Assembly (NCBI GenBank): GCA_903824755.1
Contig: CAIJXW010000094.1
Coordinates: 1 to 64,000, forward strand
Length of the DNA: 64,000 nt
Source: an uncultured Bacteroidota bacterium
GTDB lineage: Bacteria; Bacteroidota; Bacteroidia; Flavobacteriales; Flavobacteriaceae
Direction: 5' to 3'
The notes below the pieces were generated by a model. That model searched no databases. It worked only from the letters and a program-made list of their open reading frames with translations, and was not told the DNA's origin. A program made the translations under genes and the position numbers. Below, in pieces: positions 3,790 to 53,802 of this stretch; position 1 is the first letter of the stretch, and every line of letters begins with the position of its first letter.

Positions 3790-6552
3790 TTATACCTTCT
3801 CTATAAATGGGGTTTCAATATCTAGAATTTCATTAATCAAAATCGCCAATTGATCTGTATAATTATCCAAAACCTCTTTATCAATATTTGAATTTGAAGC
3901 TTTTCCTTCTTTAATAATAAAAGGAAGAAATCCAGATTTTAAATTTTTAAAGGATATAATTCCTGCTTCCATTGGTTTTCCTTGTGCTTGACTTTCAAAC
4001 ATAAAAGCGTAGGCTAGAACTTGGATAATTTTTTCGTTAGAAATTTCTTCTGTCAGTTTATCCCATGATTTTAGGGTGACATCTGATTTTTCTACCTTTC
4101 CTGTTTTGTAATCAATTATTCGGATAATTCCATTTCTTTCTTCGATTCTATCAACAGAACCTCCTATTTTCACTGGAAACGGTAAATCTTGATGGTTTAA
4201 AATGCGTTCAAATTTCTTCTCCAAGGCAATAATTTTGATAGCATCTCCATTATTAATTGCTTCGAGTTCCATTATAAGAAAATTCTGAATATTTCGTTTG
4301 GCAACTTCAAAGGCGAGTAAATTTTTTCCTTTTTTTATTTCACCTTCTTTATAAACAACTTTAAACTGTTTTAGAACCTCATCATCAATTTTATCAAAAC
4401 TATTTTGAATATCAGAAACCGATAGAAATTTGTCAATAAACGGTTCGTATATTGCCTTCAACGCCTCGTGAACTATAGTTCCAAGAGTGTTCACTGCAAT
4501 ATTTTCTTCTACCTCATCTACATCTTTTATTCCGATGATTTTTTGGAAGTAGAAACGTATTGGATTTCGAGTATAACTCGTTAATGCTGAAGGTGAAAAT
4601 CCTTGTTCGGCAATTTCAGCCAAACGTTTTTTGATGGTTTCTGTTTTTTGGATAACCATAGGTTGATAGGCATTGTCGGGAATAATTGCATTATAAATTT
4701 CGTGAGAAAATGTATGTTTATCTTGCCTTTCTACTTCAAGTTGGGTAATGAATCTACTTTTTTCACCTGCATCTAATCCGTCAGAATCCGTATTATATAA
4801 TAAATAAATATTTTTTGCCCGCTGCAGCAAATGATAAAAATGGTAAGTATATATGGCATCTTTCTCTTTGAAAGTTGGCAGTCCTTTTTCGCGTTTTACA
4901 TCATAAGGAATAAACGAGTTGTTTGATTTTCCTGCGGGAAATTTTCCTTCATTCAAGGAGGTAATAATTACAGTTTCAAAATCCAAAACACGACTTTCAA
5001 GGACACCCATTATTTGCAAACCATTCAAGGGTTCTCCTTCAAAAGAAACTTCGGCAAGGTCAACTACTTGTTTATAAATGGCATAAAGCGTCTCGATTTT
5101 ATTGATTTGAGTGTGTTTTGAGTAGTAATTTATGAGTTTGTTAATGACCTTATATAGAGAAAAAACAAACGCCTTGGCAATTTTGTCTTCCTGATTATCG
5201 TTGCTTAAATTTGTTTTTATTATTTGCAAAACCATTGCAACCGATTCCAATACCTTTGTAGGCTCATTGTCCCATTTATCAAAAAGTAATTGAAATAAAG
5301 TTGATGGCGTTGCATTTAATTGAAGGATTTTTTTGTGAGGTAGAAACGTATAATTATTTTTATTAATAATCGAAACTAAATCGGTGGCATTCACAAAAGA
5401 CTCAATCAGCGGGTGAGTCAGTACATCTAAAACATCTTTATAATAAAAAACGTAGTTGGTGCTATTTCTAGAAAGTGCATTTGTATGCATTTTGAAAAGC
5501 TTAGAAATCAAAATCTGGGCGGGATTGTTTTTGCTAGAGTATCCCATTGTAATATTCAAGGCATCGATAGTGTCTGGCAATGAATATAATAGTGGCACGA
5601 GCATGTTTTCGTCTCCAAGCACAAGGGCAACTTTGTCTAACGATTTGCCTGGATTATTTTTGATGCTGTTTTCGATAATTCCTCCTACAATTTTAGCTTG
5701 TCCAATAGTTTTTGGTGTGCCAATAATTTGAATGCTTTTTTCTTGAGAAAATTCATCTACAATCCACTCAAAAGGGTTTGTTTTATAGGTAGTCCAGCTT
5801 TCTTTGAATCTTCGTATAAACAACCCTGCATCATGAAATTGATCGTTCAAAAATGTGCGATCAATGTCCCAATATATTTTTGCTTGGTTTGATGAAATCA
5901 AATGATTTATTATTTTTTCTTCGGCTAGATTTAGGGCGTTAAACCCTGCAAAAACAAATTGTTCTTTTTTTAAAGAATTTGAAAAATGGACTAAATTATT
6001 TACTGCTTCTCGATAAATCATTCCTTGATATCCAATTCCTTTATTGAGCAAATTGGCATAGAGTGAGTGGTAATATTCAGGGAGTAATTTCCAAAAATCA
6101 ATATAATTTTCAAGGATTTTTGTTTTATTTTCAACTTCAACTCCCCATTTTTTAATGTCTTCTATGTCTTTTAGGTACGAAAGAATATTGTCTGGAACTA
6201 ATAGATATCTATCTATTTCGTTAAAATCTTGTAATAATGTTTTAGCCCAATTAGCAAAAAGCTCAAACGATTGTTGGTGTTTTTTTTCGGTAATAGACAA
6301 ATATACTTCGTAGAATTCAAAAAGCAATTCGATAGAATCAATACTTCTTATCCCTGAAATTTCTTGAATAAAATCTTCAACACTTATTATTTTTGGAGAG
6401 AAAATATTGTTTTCGATTTGTTTTTTTAAGGCATCGACTAAAAATATTTTGGCTCTTTTGTTTGGTAAAACAATAGTTACATCGGCTAGATTATCAGAAT
6501 AATTATCGATAATTGTTTTAGCAATTTTGTCTAAAAAAGGAGTGTTTGTCAT
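3790..6552 (-). CDS. PD-(D/E)XK nuclease family protein (AddB-like)
   Basis: 920 aa; C-terminal nuclease motifs GGSVDRIEERNGIIRIIDYKTGK; central TSLNEGKFP. Confidence 0.85.
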   Translation of the reverse strand: MTNTPFLDKIAKTIIDNYSDNLADVTIVLPNKRAKIFLVDALKKQIENNIFSPKIISVEDFIQEISGIRSIDSIELLFEFYEVYLSITEKKHQQSFELFANWAKTLLQDFNEIDRYLLVPDNILSYLKDIEDIKKWGVEVENKTKILENYIDFWKLLPEYYHSLYANLLNKGIGYQGMIYREAVNNLVHFSNSLKKEQFVFAGFNALNLAEEKIINHLISSNQAKIYWDIDRTFLNDQFHDAGLFIRRFKESWTTYKTNPFEWIVDEFSQEKSIQIIGTPKTIGQAKIVGGIIENSIKNNPGKSLDKVALVLGDENMLVPLLYSLPDTIDALNITMGYSSKNNPAQILISKLFKMHTNALSRNSTNYVFYYKDVLDVLTHPLIESFVNATDLVSIINKNNYTFLPHKKILQLNATPSTLFQLLFDKWDNEPTKVLESVAMVLQIIKTNLSNDNQEDKIAKAFVFSLYKVINKLINYYSKHTQINKIETLYAIYKQVVDLAEVSFEGEPLNGLQIMGVLESRVLDFETVIITSLNEGKFPAGKSNNSFIPYDVKREKGLPTFKEKDAIYTYHFYHLLQRAKNIYLLYNTDSDGLDAGEKSRFITQLEVERQDKHTFSHEIYNAIIPDNAYQPMVIQKTETIKKRLAEIAEQGFSPSALTSYTRNPIRFYFQKIIGIKDVDEVEENIAVNTLGTIVHEALKAIYEPFIDKFLSVSDIQNSFDKIDDEVLKQFKVVYKEGEIKKGKNLLAFEVAKRNIQNFLIMELEAINNGDAIKIIALEKKFERILNHQDLPFPVKIGGSVDRIEERNGIIRIIDYKTGKVEKSDVTLKSWDKLTEEISNEKIIQVLAYAFMFESQAQGKPMEAGIISFKNLKSGFLPFIIKEGKASNSNIDKEVLDNYTDQLAILINEILDIETPFIEKV

Positions 6553-6564
6553 ATTATAAAAATA

Positions 6565-6595
6565 AAAAAAAGCCTCGATAAATCGAGGCTTTTTT
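6565..6595 (-). terminator. Bidirectional terminator between ompA-like and addB-like genes
   Basis: AAGCCTCGAT-aa-ATCGAGGCTT stem flanked by A/T runs. Confidence 0.75.
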
Positions 6596-6615
6596 AGAAA
6601 ATATTTTTAGAGAAA

Positions 6616-8016
6616 TTATTTCATTAATTTCACTTCAACTCTTCTGTTGTTTGCTCTTCCTGATTCTTTATCATTTGAGTCAATTGGTTTAGATTTTCCA
6701 AAACCTGATGCAGATAATCTATCCGCTGCAATTCCATTTTCTACTAAGAAATTTTTTACTGCATTAGCTCTATCTTCAGATAATTTTTGGTTTAGCATAT
6801 CTGTTCCAGTACTATCAGTATGTCCTTCAATGCTAAATTTAGCTGTTGGATATTCTTTCAAAATACTTGCAATTGATTTTAAAACAGGTAATGTTTGTTG
6901 TTTGAAAGTAGATTTTCCTGAATTAAACAATATTGTTTTAGCATAATCGCCTAATTGTTTCATAGCATTGTCTGAAACTTCTGGACAACCATTGTTTCCA
7001 ACTGTTCCTTTAACTTCTGGACATTTGTCGTCTTTATCAAGAACGGTATCCCCATCAGTATCTGGCCATGGACAACCACCATTTTCTCTTGATCCTTTTA
7101 CTTTAGGACATTTATCATCTTTGTCTGCAACTCCATCACCATCAGTATCAGGACAACCTTTCATTGCTTTTGTTCCTGCTGCTTCTGGACATGCATCTTC
7201 TTTATCAGTAATTCCGTCTCCGTCTGTGTCAGGACATCCGTTTAATTCTGCCAATCCAAATACATCTGGACAAGCATCTGCTGAATCAACAATTCCGTCT
7301 GCGTCAGTATCAGGACAACCGTTAAATTGAGGTAAACCTGGAGTCTCAGGACAAGTATCTTCTCTGTCATATATTCCATCTCCATCAGTATCAACTCCAC
7401 CAAATTTAAAAATAAGTCCTAAAAAGTGTTGAGAGTGTGATGCAACATCAACATTAGGCGTTCTTGTCTCGTCAAATGAATGTTTGTAAGCAGTTTGGTA
7501 AGTTAAACCTACTTGTTTTCCCATCCAATACGTCAACCCTAAACCTCCGTTTAAAGTTCCTGCACTAGCTGTACCCATAAAGGTATAACCCCCACCAATT
7601 GTAGCGTTTGGGTCAAGTCTTTTTAGTCCTAATATTTTTGCAAAGCTGTAAGAAATTGTAGCGTCTGCGCTGTAATAAGCTAAGTTCCCTGGATTTGTAA
7701 CTGGATATTTTCCACTAACATCTTTCGTGTTAACGAATCTTTTGATAGTGTTTATTGATCCTGTAACTCCAAATGAGAAATTATTTCCTACATATTTTGA
7801 TACATTAATATAAGAAACTGAAGAAAGTGTATTCCAATTGCTCTTAAGGTTAAAATATTCAGAAAACTGATTTTTCATACTAGAAGATGAGCTAACTTTT
7901 GTGTCAACTGCACTTGCCCCGAAAGATATTGCCCATGGGTGATTACTGTCCTGTGCTTGAAGGCCTAGTGCAACAAATAAACACACAATTGCAATTAATT
8001 TGTTAAAATGTTTCAT
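6616..8016 (-). CDS. OmpA family outer membrane protein with thrombospondin type 3 repeats
   Basis: Signal peptide, beta-barrel region, DTDGDG.D..D.CP repeats, C-terminal OmpA domain ([25 protein letters not shown]). Confidence 0.93.
6995..7395 (-). repeat. Tandem TSP3-type calcium-binding repeats inside the OmpA protein
   Basis: Five imperfect copies of DTDGDGxxDxxDxCPxxxGxxxxxGCP. Confidence 0.85.
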
Positions 8017-48382: not shown

Positions 48383-48406
48383 GGGGTTTTGTGAATCCGA
48401 AAAAAA
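48383..48406 (+). repeat. 24-bp direct repeat, left copy, flanking the R-M cassette
   Basis: GGGGTTTTGTGAATCCGAAAAAAA identical to 51133-51156. Confidence 0.9.
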
Positions 48407-48524: not shown

Positions 48525-49664
48525 TTACTCGGTTTCGTTATTAAATTCCGTAAATGTGTTCGTTTTCATAATGTCTATTTTATAATCTCCAACTTCATTT
48601 TTAATAATAATTACACTGTCAAAACCTAATTTATCTAACTTTTCCATTGTTGCAAATTCGCCTTCTTTGAGTTGTAAAACTTTTCTCAACAACCAATCAG
48701 ACAATGCTTTATTTGGATTTGTCATTAATGCCTTTCTTCCTTGTTGACAAAGACTTGCACTAAACATTTCTCCTGTTGGAATTTGCAAATTAAAATCTTG
48801 GTCTTTTTCGGGAAAGAAATTTGGATATTTTTTGTGCAATTCCGCAGGAATTGGAATATAAATTTCTCCAAAATCTCTTTTCCTTCCGTTTGCATTCCAT
48901 TGATTTAAACCGCTACGCTCAAAAATAAATTTCTCTTTTTTCTGAATTCCATAAAGTGGTAAAATAATATAATTTTCACCTTTAACAAGTTTATCAGTTG
49001 CAGATTTTAGGGTTTTATTTTCCTCGAATAATTCAAGTAATAACGAATACGGGTCTTCAATTATATCAATTGGTAATCTATAAGCATTTTGCGGAATTAT
49101 AAACTTTCTAAAAAGCGTACTTTTAGAATAGTTAAATAAGTAAAAATTGTTTCCGTCTTCAAATTGTAAACTTGATTTATTGTCTTTAACTGAATGAATA
49201 TTAGCAACATCGATAATGTTGTAATCAGTTTCATATAATAATAATTCTTTTTCTTTTCGGGCAACAATATGATAAAGTGAATTTTCAATGTCGTAAACAC
49301 GATTAGCTAAATTTATTCTATCGTTCCTAAATTCTCCAAGTTTCAAAGCTAATTTTTTACCTTTAAAATTACTCAAAGTTTTAGCTAAAGAGTTAAATTC
49401 TGCAACTTTCTCCGTGCTTGAATTCCCATTACAAATAAATGTTTTCAAACCAACACCAACAGAATTATAGTTTGCATCAAAAGCCGTGTCAGAACGTGAT
49501 AAATTTCCGGCATCAAAACTTCTGCAAAAAATATTTTCGGCAACACGATAATTTATGAAAGGGACAGAACTTTCACTAAATAACCCCGAAAGCTTTGAAA
49601 CTGCTGAAAGCAGTTTCAAATAATTTCCGTTTTTTTCTATGTCAATTTCAGCAAACGATTTCAT
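48525..49664 (-). CDS. putative type II restriction endonuclease (PD-(D/E)XK-like N-terminus, B3-like C-terminus)
   Basis: SRSDTAFDANYNSVGVGLKTF N-terminal signature; C-terminal IPIPAELHKKYPNFFPEKDQDFNLQIPTGEMFSASLCQQGRKALMTNPNKALSDWLL resembles NgoFVII-type DNA-binding domains; ATGA overlap with the methyltransferase. Confidence 0.7.
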   Translation of the reverse strand: MKSFAEIDIEKNGNYLKLLSAVSKLSGLFSESSVPFINYRVAENIFCRSFDAGNLSRSDTAFDANYNSVGVGLKTFICNGNSSTEKVAEFNSLAKTLSNFKGKKLALKLGEFRNDRINLANRVYDIENSLYHIVARKEKELLLYETDYNIIDVANIHSVKDNKSSLQFEDGNNFYLFNYSKSTLFRKFIIPQNAYRLPIDIIEDPYSLLLELFEENKTLKSATDKLVKGENYIILPLYGIQKKEKFIFERSGLNQWNANGRKRDFGEIYIPIPAELHKKYPNFFPEKDQDFNLQIPTGEMFSASLCQQGRKALMTNPNKALSDWLLRKVLQLKEGEFATMEKLDKLGFDSVIIIKNEVGDYKIDIMKTNTFTEFNNETE

Positions 49665-50884
49665 AAAACATTTATAATTTCGTTGCAAATTCTCTCAATT
49701 AATGTTGTTGTTACAGAATTTCCTGCTTGCATATATAATTTGCTATTCGCCAGGTTTGGCAAAATATAATTTTCTGGAAAACCTTGAAATAAAAAGCATT
49801 CTTTCGGAGTAAGTTTTCTAATCCCGTAATCGTCTTTTATTAATGGAACATTATGTCCACCTGTTCCCATATTTGCTGTTAAAGTTGGGCAAACATTGCT
49901 TTTGTTTTCTCTTGCGTAAACTCTACGCCATTGATAAACAGTGTCTTTTGAAACCATTGCTTTTTCCAATTCAGGATAATATTGATGGTCTTTTTGATAG
50001 TATAAATTGTCCGCTTGTTTTCCTTTTTCTAAAATATCATGAATAGTTTTTGTCAATTTAATTTCCGAAGGAAATTTAAAATCAGCATAATTATCTACTT
50101 GATTTGGGTCAAATGCAATAATAAAAATTCTTTCACGATTTTGCGGAATATTTGCGTGTGTCATTGAGTTCAAAATTTTTGTAAAAACTTTGTAACCTAA
50201 TTTATCTTCTAAAACTGAAATAATAGTTTTAAATGTATTTCCGTTGTCATGAGAAACTAAATTTTTTACATTTTCTAAAAACACAACTTTCGGTTTGTGT
50301 TTTACAACGATTTGCTCAATATCAAAAAACAATGTCCCTCTTGTATCAGCGAAACCTTTTTGGTTTCCTGCAATTGAAAACGCTTGACAAGGAAAACCTG
50401 CACACAAAACGTCAAATTCTTGCGGAATATAATTTTTTACACGTTTTTTTGTAATGTCGCCAAAAGGAATTTCACCAAAGTTTTCTCTGTAAGTTTTTTG
50501 AGCTGCTGTTTCCCATTCGCTAGTAAAAACACACTTTCCGCCAACATTTTGCATAGCTAATCTAAATCCTCCAATTCCTGCAAAAAGGTCAATAAACTTA
50601 AAAGTATAATTATTTGGCGTTGGAAACGGCACGTTTTCAACTTCAAAAAGAAGTTGCTGTAAAGCATCTTTTGCTACAATATTTACTTGTTCTTCAACTT
50701 GTTTATATTGAACAAAGTTGTTTAAAACTTTTACAGCATCTTTTTTATAATGCTTTGAAACTCCGTTACGATAGTTGTGTAAATAGTGAGTAATTAATGC
50801 TTTGTCGTATGGCTCAACAAGTTTTATTTGATAGTTTTTCCCATCAAATTCTTCAATACTTATTTTCTCTTTAACTGCTATCAA
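49661..50884 (-). CDS. DNA (cytosine-5-)-methyltransferase
   Basis: FIDLFAGIGGFRLAM, AGFPCQAFSIAGNQKGFADTRGTLFFDI, ENVKNL, QNRERIFIIA, RKLTPKECFLFQGFP, QAGNSV. Confidence 0.96.
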   Translation of the reverse strand: MIAVKEKISIEEFDGKNYQIKLVEPYDKALITHYLHNYRNGVSKHYKKDAVKVLNNFVQYKQVEEQVNIVAKDALQQLLFEVENVPFPTPNNYTFKFIDLFAGIGGFRLAMQNVGGKCVFTSEWETAAQKTYRENFGEIPFGDITKKRVKNYIPQEFDVLCAGFPCQAFSIAGNQKGFADTRGTLFFDIEQIVVKHKPKVVFLENVKNLVSHDNGNTFKTIISVLEDKLGYKVFTKILNSMTHANIPQNRERIFIIAFDPNQVDNYADFKFPSEIKLTKTIHDILEKGKQADNLYYQKDHQYYPELEKAMVSKDTVYQWRRVYARENKSNVCPTLTANMGTGGHNVPLIKDDYGIRKLTPKECFLFQGFPENYILPNLANSKLYMQAGNSVTTTLIERICNEIINVL

Positions 50885-50954: not shown

Positions 50955-51100
50955 GCTGCGCAAAGTCTCCCGACTTTGAGCTTCAACTAACTAGTTTGCT
51001 TTTCAAATATAATCAATCTCATTTCTTTTTAATAAAATCTACACTATTTTTAATATGTTTTTTGTATTTCATAGCTCAAAGTCGGGAGACTTTGTGCGGC
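50955..51100. repeat. 28-bp inverted repeat pair (50955-50982 / 51073-51100), each arm itself a hairpin
   Basis: gctgcgcaaagtctcccgactttgagct vs agctcaaagtcgggagactttgtgcggc: 26/28 inverted match; each contains AAAGTC-n4-GACTTT. Confidence 0.85.
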
Positions 51101-51132: not shown

Positions 51133-51156
51133 GGGGTTTTGTGAATCCGAAAAAAA
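51133..51156 (+). repeat. 24-bp direct repeat, right copy, flanking the R-M cassette
   Basis: Identical to 48383-48406. Confidence 0.9.
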
Positions 51157-52419: not shown

Positions 52420-52519
52420 TTTTAGGTATTTGTTGATTGTTTTTAGTTGCTTTTTTTTGGAAGCTAAATGCTTATTCAGGAACACTGACTTTGCAAGTGC
52501 GAAACAAGGTTTTCATTAA

Positions 52520-52564
52520 GTCTAATGCCCGCAATTTCTTGAAACGGCTGTTAGTGGCAGTTAT
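52520..52564 (-). repeat. attC-like/REP-like hairpin immediately 3' of the HEPN gene
   Basis: - strand CTAACaGCCgTTTCaaGAAAttgCGGGCaTTAG nested symmetry. Confidence 0.5.
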
Positions 52565-53149
52565 TTATAGTCCTATAACTCTATTCCAATCTGCTATATA
52601 CATATAAACTCTTTGATATTCCGACGGCAGTAATGTTCTGTTGTGAGCAATAAAATTTCTTACCTTCTCTAATTCTTCCATTCTTTGTTTTAACCAATGC
52701 TGGGATGGGATTAGATTACTAAAATATGACCATTTCTCTATAATTATTGAAGTCAACATTCCAAAGTCAATAAAGCCTAAAAGGTCACTTTTTTCCCCTT
52801 CAAGCCAAGAATCTTTAAGAGCGGTTTCTTGCCTTCCTTCTGCATGAGTTTTCATTTTCGGCGGTAGTTTGGACCACCAATCAGCACCATCATTTTCGGT
52901 CAATGTTTCCCTAATATATTCTCTTATTTCATTTTCAAAACAATGAAGTACCGCATACAACCTAGCCATTTCTAATGCATTATTTCTTCTCACGATGCTA
53001 AAAGGAGCAATTGATTCGGATAGCAACTGTTCTTCTGCTTGTGTTGAACTTGCACCAATTTGAATTCCAGCTTTTTGAAATTTTGTGGCTTCAGATTCAA
53101 ACATAAGTCCTCTAAAAAAGAAGTCTCGGATATCTTTTTTCTTATTCAA
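52565..53149 (-). CDS. Swt1-type HEPN domain protein (predicted RNase-like)
   Basis: DFFFRGL N-terminus, FENEIREYI, DWW, FGMLTSIIIEKWSYFSNLIPSQHW, RNFIAH (R-x4-H), IADWNRVIG; TTG start overlapping the upstream frame. Confidence 0.75.
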   Translation of the reverse strand: MNKKKDIRDFFFRGLMFESEATKFQKAGIQIGASSTQAEEQLLSESIAPFSIVRRNNALEMARLYAVLHCFENEIREYIRETLTENDGADWWSKLPPKMKTHAEGRQETALKDSWLEGEKSDLLGFIDFGMLTSIIIEKWSYFSNLIPSQHWLKQRMEELEKVRNFIAHNRTLLPSEYQRVYMYIADWNRVIGL

Positions 53150-53765
53150 TTAGATGGTCTTTTAAAGATTTAAAAATAGCATTATAAACTTCAACATCTT
53201 TAGTTGCCGGTAAGTGAATTTGGATGTTGTAATGAAGACCGACAGAAGCATTCGATTTATTTCTAACAGATGATACTACAGTTTCTATTTCTTATTTTGC
53301 ATCATTTGTTTCTATTGGGGCTTTAGGTGTTTTCGTTTTAGTTCCTCCATCCAAGTCAGCTAAATCAAGTAATGCATAAAACGTTTTGCTCATTAAACTA
53401 GCGACTGTATCACTTACGTTATGATAACTTTTAAACTTACCTTCAACAAGAGCTTTGTCTGATGTAGTAGGTTTTGATTTAATCAAAAATATATCTGAAT
53501 ATGCTTCTTTTATAGCTTCTCCCATTATTGTTTTAGATGCTGAATGACTCCTATAATCGTGATATCTTGGAGTTGGACTTCCATCTGCGGTTAAGAATCC
53601 AAGTGCTTTTAAAATTGGTAAAAAAGCTCTATGATTATTTGATTTATAACCAAAATCTTTAATCATTTGTAATGAGAATTTATCTGGAGCTTGAGCGTCT
53701 CTTAACTTTCCAAAAAAATCTGGTAGAAGTTTAAATTCTTGCGTGTATGTTGTTGGTAATGCCAT
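53142..53765 (-). pseudogene. DUF5343 domain protein interrupted by an in-frame TAA (codon at 53292-53294)
   Basis: N-terminal MALPTTYTQEFKLLPDFFGKLRDAQAPDKFS..; after ..ETNDAK* the same frame continues EIETVVSSVRNKSNASVGLHYNIQIHLPATKDVEVYNAIFKSLKDHLIE*. Confidence 0.75.
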
Positions 53766-53787
53766 ATTTTCTTTTTTATGTTTATTT

Positions 53788-53802
53788 ATAATTGCCACTA
53801 AC
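53788..53802 (-). repeat. 15-bp inverted partner (GTTAGTGGCAATTAT) of 52550-52564
   Basis: 14/15 inverted match bracketing the DUF5343-HEPN pair. Confidence 0.55.

Follow-up and report, generated by a model that had tools for sequence, protein, structure and literature searches.

Two adjacent genes on the minus strand of a Flavobacteriaceae draft genome (G000; 190 contigs, 89% complete) raise the question of what the pair does and how it came to be there. We analyzed them within a 64,000-nucleotide stretch of contig CAIJXW010000094.1, called the window here. The preliminary description had recognized a DUF5343-like frame followed by a Swt1-type HEPN protein, and Pfam profile searches bore out both identities. 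The DUF5343 gene as it stands (53292..53765, minus strand) encodes 157 aa from an ATG at 53765 and matches PF17278 with 134.3 bits against a curated cut-off of 27 (E 4.6e-39). The HEPN gene (52565..53149, minus strand) encodes 194 aa from a TTG start, matches PF18731 (HEPN_Swt1) with 55.1 bits against a curated cut-off of 27.5 (E 1.1e-14), and contains the motif RNFIAH, that is, R164-x4-H169.

The pair is already a catalogued candidate, PDC-M34. When searched against PADLOC-DB, the HEPN protein matches PDC-M34B (E 3.7e-68) and the DUF5343 frame, read through a stop codon described below, matches PDC-M34A (E 1.1e-74); both matches are nearly full-length, and the two components are present and adjacent in the same order. 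PDC systems are unpublished candidates (PMC11811056), and since two others from PADLOC were inactive when tested (PMC12409345), the listing proves nothing by itself. A literature search found no paper on DUF5343 or PDC-M34. Our analysis adds the carriage of the pair as a cassette, the overlap between its genes and a possible switch of partner.

The window carries a disrupted member of PDC-M34, with its first component no longer intact. An in-frame TAA at 53294-53292 stops DUF5343 after 157 codons and 142 nt ahead of the HEPN start. Past this stop the frame stays open as far as another TAA (53144-53142). This remainder (53142..53291, minus strand), intact in two relatives (L003/L022), codes for a linker that varies and for the conserved C-terminal tail GLHYNIQIHLPATKDVEVYNAIFKSLKDHLIE (GLHYNIQIHLP..IFKSLKDHLIE). 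The interruption had been merely hinted at in the preliminary description, which spoke of a 'repaired DUF5343'. The 8-nt overlap with the HEPN gene that it reported (53142..53149, minus strand) is present in the read-through frame and kept in most relatives, but the actual ORF stops well before it. Homopolymer tracts in the DUF5343 linker might have allowed phase variation, but this was rejected, as 6 tracts were observed and 6.7 expected under synonymous shuffling.

Because the tail past the stop is still conserved relative to other loci (non-synonymous difference 0.06-0.08, synonymous 0.49-0.75), the stop is recent, or else an error or variant of the assembly. A stop that arose in assembly, or that is a minor variant in the population, would leave a functional copy; this seems to us on the unlikely side: the genome is an incomplete draft and the conservation past the stop would fit, but there is a single assembly of the source to judge by, and the attC-like site next to the pair is damaged too, which suggests decay. 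We consider the window copy probably inactive, since the tail is lost with the stop and HEPN translation should become uncoupled.

Whether the two genes belong together was examined across a much wider set of genomes. An alignment of DUF5343 scanned against 84,980 prokaryote genomes yielded 314 relatives, and in each of the best 80, drawn from many phyla and one archaeal metagenome-assembled genome (MAG), a HEPN gene lies downstream, nearly always directly (80/80). Because the 80 had been selected by similarity to the query, and the counts outside Bacteroidota rest on this similarity-ranked list, we used unranked samples as well. A close DUF5343 occurs in 5 of 251 genomes of the family, adjoined by HEPN in all five; among 396 Bacteroidota genomes, a full-length HEPN match and a two-gene DUF5343 each occur in six, and the two sets of six are identical; and in a sample from another order the pairing held in 3/3. 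The tight association of the families asserted earlier is thus upheld, and DUF5343 and HEPN are an obligate adjacent pair.

The pair ranges from Flavobacteria to Proteobacteria, Actinobacteria and the one archaeal MAG, and some of these loci are MAG contigs that may be misassigned. Examples with both genes intact are those of Flagellimonas marinaquae (L024), Flavobacterium anhuiense (L027) and Pseudomonas citri (L054). In a tree of the HEPN proteins, counting well-supported branches alone, Pseudomonadota require at least 6 changes and Bacteroidota at least 3; the closest relative of the window protein, 91% identical, comes from another Bacteroidota MAG. The phage, plasmid and E. coli records searched held no full-length match, and one viral contig held a 54-residue fragment. 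Most of the other DUF5343 proteins among the sampled Bacteroidota are longer, and most adjoin a response-regulator-like gene. Eight of the related loci (L012, L014-L019, L021) encode DUF5343 proteins of ~500-600 aa, with TPR repeats in the two that were scanned (L012, L014); these long proteins form a separate, apparently regulatory branch of the family. At another locus (L020, 1462-2650), a shorter DUF5343 adjoins a HEPN protein of a different family, Ymh (PF09509), which is listed among HEPN families (PMC3710099). This could be another type of DUF5343-HEPN pair; as one case it is a lead and not a pattern, and it fits DUF5343 as a general partner of HEPN proteins.

The conservation of the proteins and of their gene overlap bears on catalysis and translational coupling. 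Both R164 and H169 are invariant in 82 HEPN proteins, as are E72, R76, D187 and W188, in line with the full R-x4-H motif noted at the outset, and the protein is a predicted ribonuclease that would cut RNA. In both Bacteroidota and Proteobacteria, the DUF5343 stop and the HEPN start usually overlap by 8 nt and HEPN begins with TTG, and some overlaps measure 4 or 11 nt; since most relatives with an intact DUF5343 share the 8-nt overlap, usually with TTG, it is no accident. Compared with five relatives, the non-synonymous difference is 0.20-0.26 in the N-terminal domain of DUF5343 and 0.06-0.08 in its tail, and HEPN gives 0.06-0.14; synonymous sites are close to saturation. As the tail and HEPN change little and the N-terminal domain more, the pattern suggests that the tail and HEPN may form a constrained unit while the N-terminal domain adapts. 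AlphaFold2 models have a mean pLDDT of 87 for HEPN and an overall pLDDT of 82 for DUF5343, whose N-terminal domain is well modeled and whose linker has low confidence. A Foldseek search found no significant relative for either model, and neither protein has a convincing relative of solved structure by sequence or fold; HepT was among the top weak PDB matches of HEPN (probability 0.3, not significant).

How the pair moves is indicated by its ends, which the preliminary description had missed. The module is bracketed by a 29-nt inverted repeat, I2. One arm (53774..53802, minus strand) is the cassette start GTTAGTGGCAATTAT, 37 nt ahead of the DUF5343 ATG. The other (52550..52578, minus strand; ATAACTGCCACTAAC) reaches from the last part of HEPN into the beginning of an attC-like site, of which a remnant is left at 52483..52564 (minus strand), with its left half and loop kept and its right half gone. 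The outer 15 nt of the 52550-52578 arm pair with the cassette start except for one A/G difference, and the array cassettes described below have the same difference. The pairing of cassette start and R box, GTTAGTGGCA / TGCCACTAAC, scores 12.5.

A simple test for attC L boxes was weakly positive (16/76 modules, compared with 7% of control genes), and we therefore relied on a GTT-anchored test in which the start of each module is paired with its own end, with ends swapped between loci as the control. Scores of at least 8 were reached in 18 of 84 modules, the window included, whereas swapped ends gave a mean of 0.3 and a maximum of 2.0. At these loci both ends pair, yet their sequence is specific to the locus, mostly beginning with GTT. 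The paired ends lie 25-60 nt ahead of DUF5343 and 7-17 nt past HEPN, with one outlier; this spacing is the geometry of an integron cassette, because the start and end of a cassette derive from one circular attC site. Outside Bacteroidota, attC-like sites were seen by eye past HEPN at seven loci (L033, L035, L036, L037, L075, L078, L093). The module neighborhoods in four genomes (G301, G385, G324, G448) contained no cassette-type gene ends; in two of these genomes (G301, G385), an integron integrase is encoded on a contig other than that of the module.

We weighed whether these inverted repeats could instead be the ends of a transposon-like element. The pairing in Bacteroidota extends over 14-15 nt and so exceeds the R box, which has 7 bases, and the window genome, 89% complete, has no integron integrase above the TIGR02249 cut-off, both as a transposon might predict. 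Fixed terminal repeats, however, would not differ from locus to locus and still pair at each one, as these sites do; the module has no transposase; attC-like sites follow the pair at the seven loci just listed; and in Flavobacterium the same ends recur in tandem arrays whose cassettes differ. Transposon ends are thus quite improbable, and the pair most likely disperses as an integron-type gene cassette. In the window itself, the attC-like site aligns with those of the Flavobacterium arrays to ~52483 and then continues without the right half; no complete attC site is present at the module, which is therefore at most a degraded cassette. Nor can an attC-like site be seen upstream of the module, and together with the loss of the right half this leaves a single cassette that is apparently no longer excisable. 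The window cassette is probably no longer mobile.

The arrays in question came to light through the 91-nt region past the window HEPN, to which similar sequence occurs in 26 of 61 Flavobacterium genomes. One of these 26 genomes (G667) has tandem arrays of cassettes with attC-like sites on two contigs (L154 on C29 and L173 on C28). Cassette-type gene ends number 6 and 10 among the 12 and 16 genes of these arrays, a few being counted twice, compared with 2 among 145 control genes. The array ends, GTTAGTGGCAATTT / AAACTGCCACTAACAGCGG, are nearly identical to those of the window, and cassettes of the L154 array start as the window cassette does. Integron integrases above the TIGR02249 cut-off were found in 13 of 63 genomes searched (duplicates counted twice) and in 0/14 controls. 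The array-bearing genome encodes a 356-aa IntI-like tyrosine recombinase (L173, 11249-12319, minus strand) that matches TIGR02249 except for most of positions 176-240 and lies ~190 nt upstream of the first cassette gene of its array, with which it shares its orientation. Relatives of this recombinase occur in 29 of 61 Flavobacterium genomes, and a comparison of coordinates in five of them (G679, G658, G669, G676, G646) placed the recombinase at most ~10 kb upstream of an attC-like match in the same direction.

Complete integrons in Bacteroidetes proper have been reported by IntegronFinder 2.0 solely for Salinibacter (PMC9024848). We tentatively suggest, at a little short of even odds, that Flavobacterium, and perhaps Bacteroidota, hold a little-recognized integron, in which an IntI-like recombinase without most of positions 176-240 would sit just upstream of same-direction arrays with attC-like sites of their own, and that through such cassettes and classical ones the DUF5343-HEPN RNase defense module may have reached ~15 phyla. 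The Flavobacterium arrays would then extend integrons into a phylum thought to be almost without them (PMC9024848).

The surroundings of the module were a poor guide to its function. The preliminary description had drawn on the proximity of a restriction-modification (R-M) operon, and a type II R-M operon does lie at 48525-50884 in the window, with an amidohydrolase gene between it and the pair. The neighbors of related modules, however, are mostly unrelated housekeeping genes. Matches to PADLOC families, estimated from family counts among the matches listed (first 25 families), amount to ~7 proteins among the 148 nearest neighbors compared with ~4 among 123 control genes. Defense matches being few and not clearly above controls, proximity to R-M is not general; enrichment in defense islands was rejected, and the neighborhood argument falls away with it. 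A non-coding RNA partner, as in AbiF, was likewise rejected, with no Rfam match at gathering thresholds between 44 and 60 kb.

The R-M operon has repeats of its own around it. Exact 24-nt direct repeats (48383-48406 and 51133-51156), the sole two copies in the genome, flank it as if the operon had been inserted between them as a unit. A 28-nt inverted repeat (50955-50982 / 51073-51100), 93% complementary with its arms 90 nt apart, lies between the operon and the amidohydrolase gene. At four related loci (L053, L057, L083, L088), the module has the same large upstream neighbor (66-81% mutual identity), apparently a class II ribonucleotide reductase, which suggests one inherited or preferred place of insertion.

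Taking these lines together, we propose, with a probability of about 0.58, that the pair is a translationally coupled module of a partner or sensor and a HEPN RNase, probably anti-phage and spread as an integron-type cassette. The proposal is supported by the obligate pairing, the kept overlap, the invariant HEPN residues, the mixing of phyla and the cassette ends. The reading of the genes as a sensor or partner with an RNase had been put forward in the preliminary description; it gains from the pairing, the invariant R-x4-H and the PDC-M34 listing, and loses its R-M argument. From these sequence patterns we infer sensing by DUF5343, docking of its tail, RNA cutting and protection against phage. 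DUF5343 would be partner and sensor in one, holding HEPN through its conserved C-terminal tail, while its faster-evolving N-terminal domain would respond to a cue of infection and thereby free or activate the HEPN ribonuclease, which would cut host or phage RNA and halt the infected cell. Through the overlap and the weak TTG start, the HEPN level would stay low and depend on the translation of DUF5343. A slowly changing tail and HEPN beside a faster N-terminal domain is what docking of the tail on HEPN, combined with an adapting N-terminal domain, would lead us to expect. HEPN proteins have been linked to abortive infection (PMC3710099). Counting against a role in defense are the lack of clear defense enrichment among the neighbors and the absence of the pair from the phage and plasmid records searched.

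The main rival is a type II toxin-antitoxin system, in which DUF5343 would be the antitoxin and HEPN the toxin, stabilizing cassette arrays rather than defending against phage. An antitoxin-first order, an overlap and a weak toxin start are usual in type II toxin-antitoxin pairs and match the DUF5343-first order, the overlap and the TTG start here, and large integron arrays are known to carry such pairs. HEPN toxins are also common (PMC3710099). The broken copies among relatives, however, weigh the other way, as loss should strike a freed toxin first. Frameshifts interrupt DUF5343 in L079, L007 and L086, where HEPN shows no visible damage (that of L086 being cut by the contig end), and HEPN is damaged beside an intact DUF5343 in L055, L058 and L084. 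Loci with a broken DUF5343, the window included, are thus about as many as those with a damaged HEPN; this lack of an excess of broken HEPN weakens the idea of a free toxin, and could itself result from translational coupling or sequencing errors. The damage in L084 is an IS element, probably IS3-like (5720-7010), that splits HEPN in its N-terminal part. We regard a toxin-antitoxin role as unlikely.

A regulated RNA-processing or stress-response enzyme with no role in conflict is very improbable in our judgment. Some HEPN families do process RNA (PMC3710099), and the neighbors are mostly housekeeping genes, but the pair is patchy (6/396 Bacteroidota genomes), and the phylum mixing and cassette ends point to accessory cargo.

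If the preferred reading as a defense module is right, the pair would be a compact two-gene RNase system with members in Flavobacteria, Proteobacteria, Actinobacteria and one archaeal MAG, and DUF5343 would join the likely controllers of HEPN proteins. A search for defense islands would miss such a pair because, traveling as a cassette, it lands at unrelated sites.

Among known systems, PDC-M34 has the same two components in the same order, and the window differs from it by the interrupted DUF5343. With Abi2/AbiD/AbiF and Swt1-like HEPN proteins (PMC3710099) the pair shares a Swt1-type HEPN with R-x4-H, a domain that Pfam places in the Abi2/Swt1 group; here, however, HEPN stands alone beside a separate DUF5343, without a PIN, AAA+ or helicase domain. 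The MntA-HepT (HEPN-MNT) toxin-antitoxin likewise consists of two small genes for a HEPN RNase and a controlling partner, but the partner here is DUF5343 and not a nucleotidyltransferase, which places the pair outside that system. DS-11 (CBS-HEPN) is a sensor-HEPN defense protein shown at work, whose catalytic residues are needed for defense (PMC13092281); its sensor domain is thought to control the HEPN nuclease, as we propose for DUF5343, although DS-11 is a single protein with a CBS sensor unrelated to DUF5343. Finally, the phage-defense cassettes of integrons (Darracq 2025; Kieffer 2025), as far as they are described where cited in PMC12690207 and PMC13092281, carry defense genes as cassettes with attC sites, as proposed here for a member of Bacteroidota, a phylum barely known for integrons (PMC9024848).
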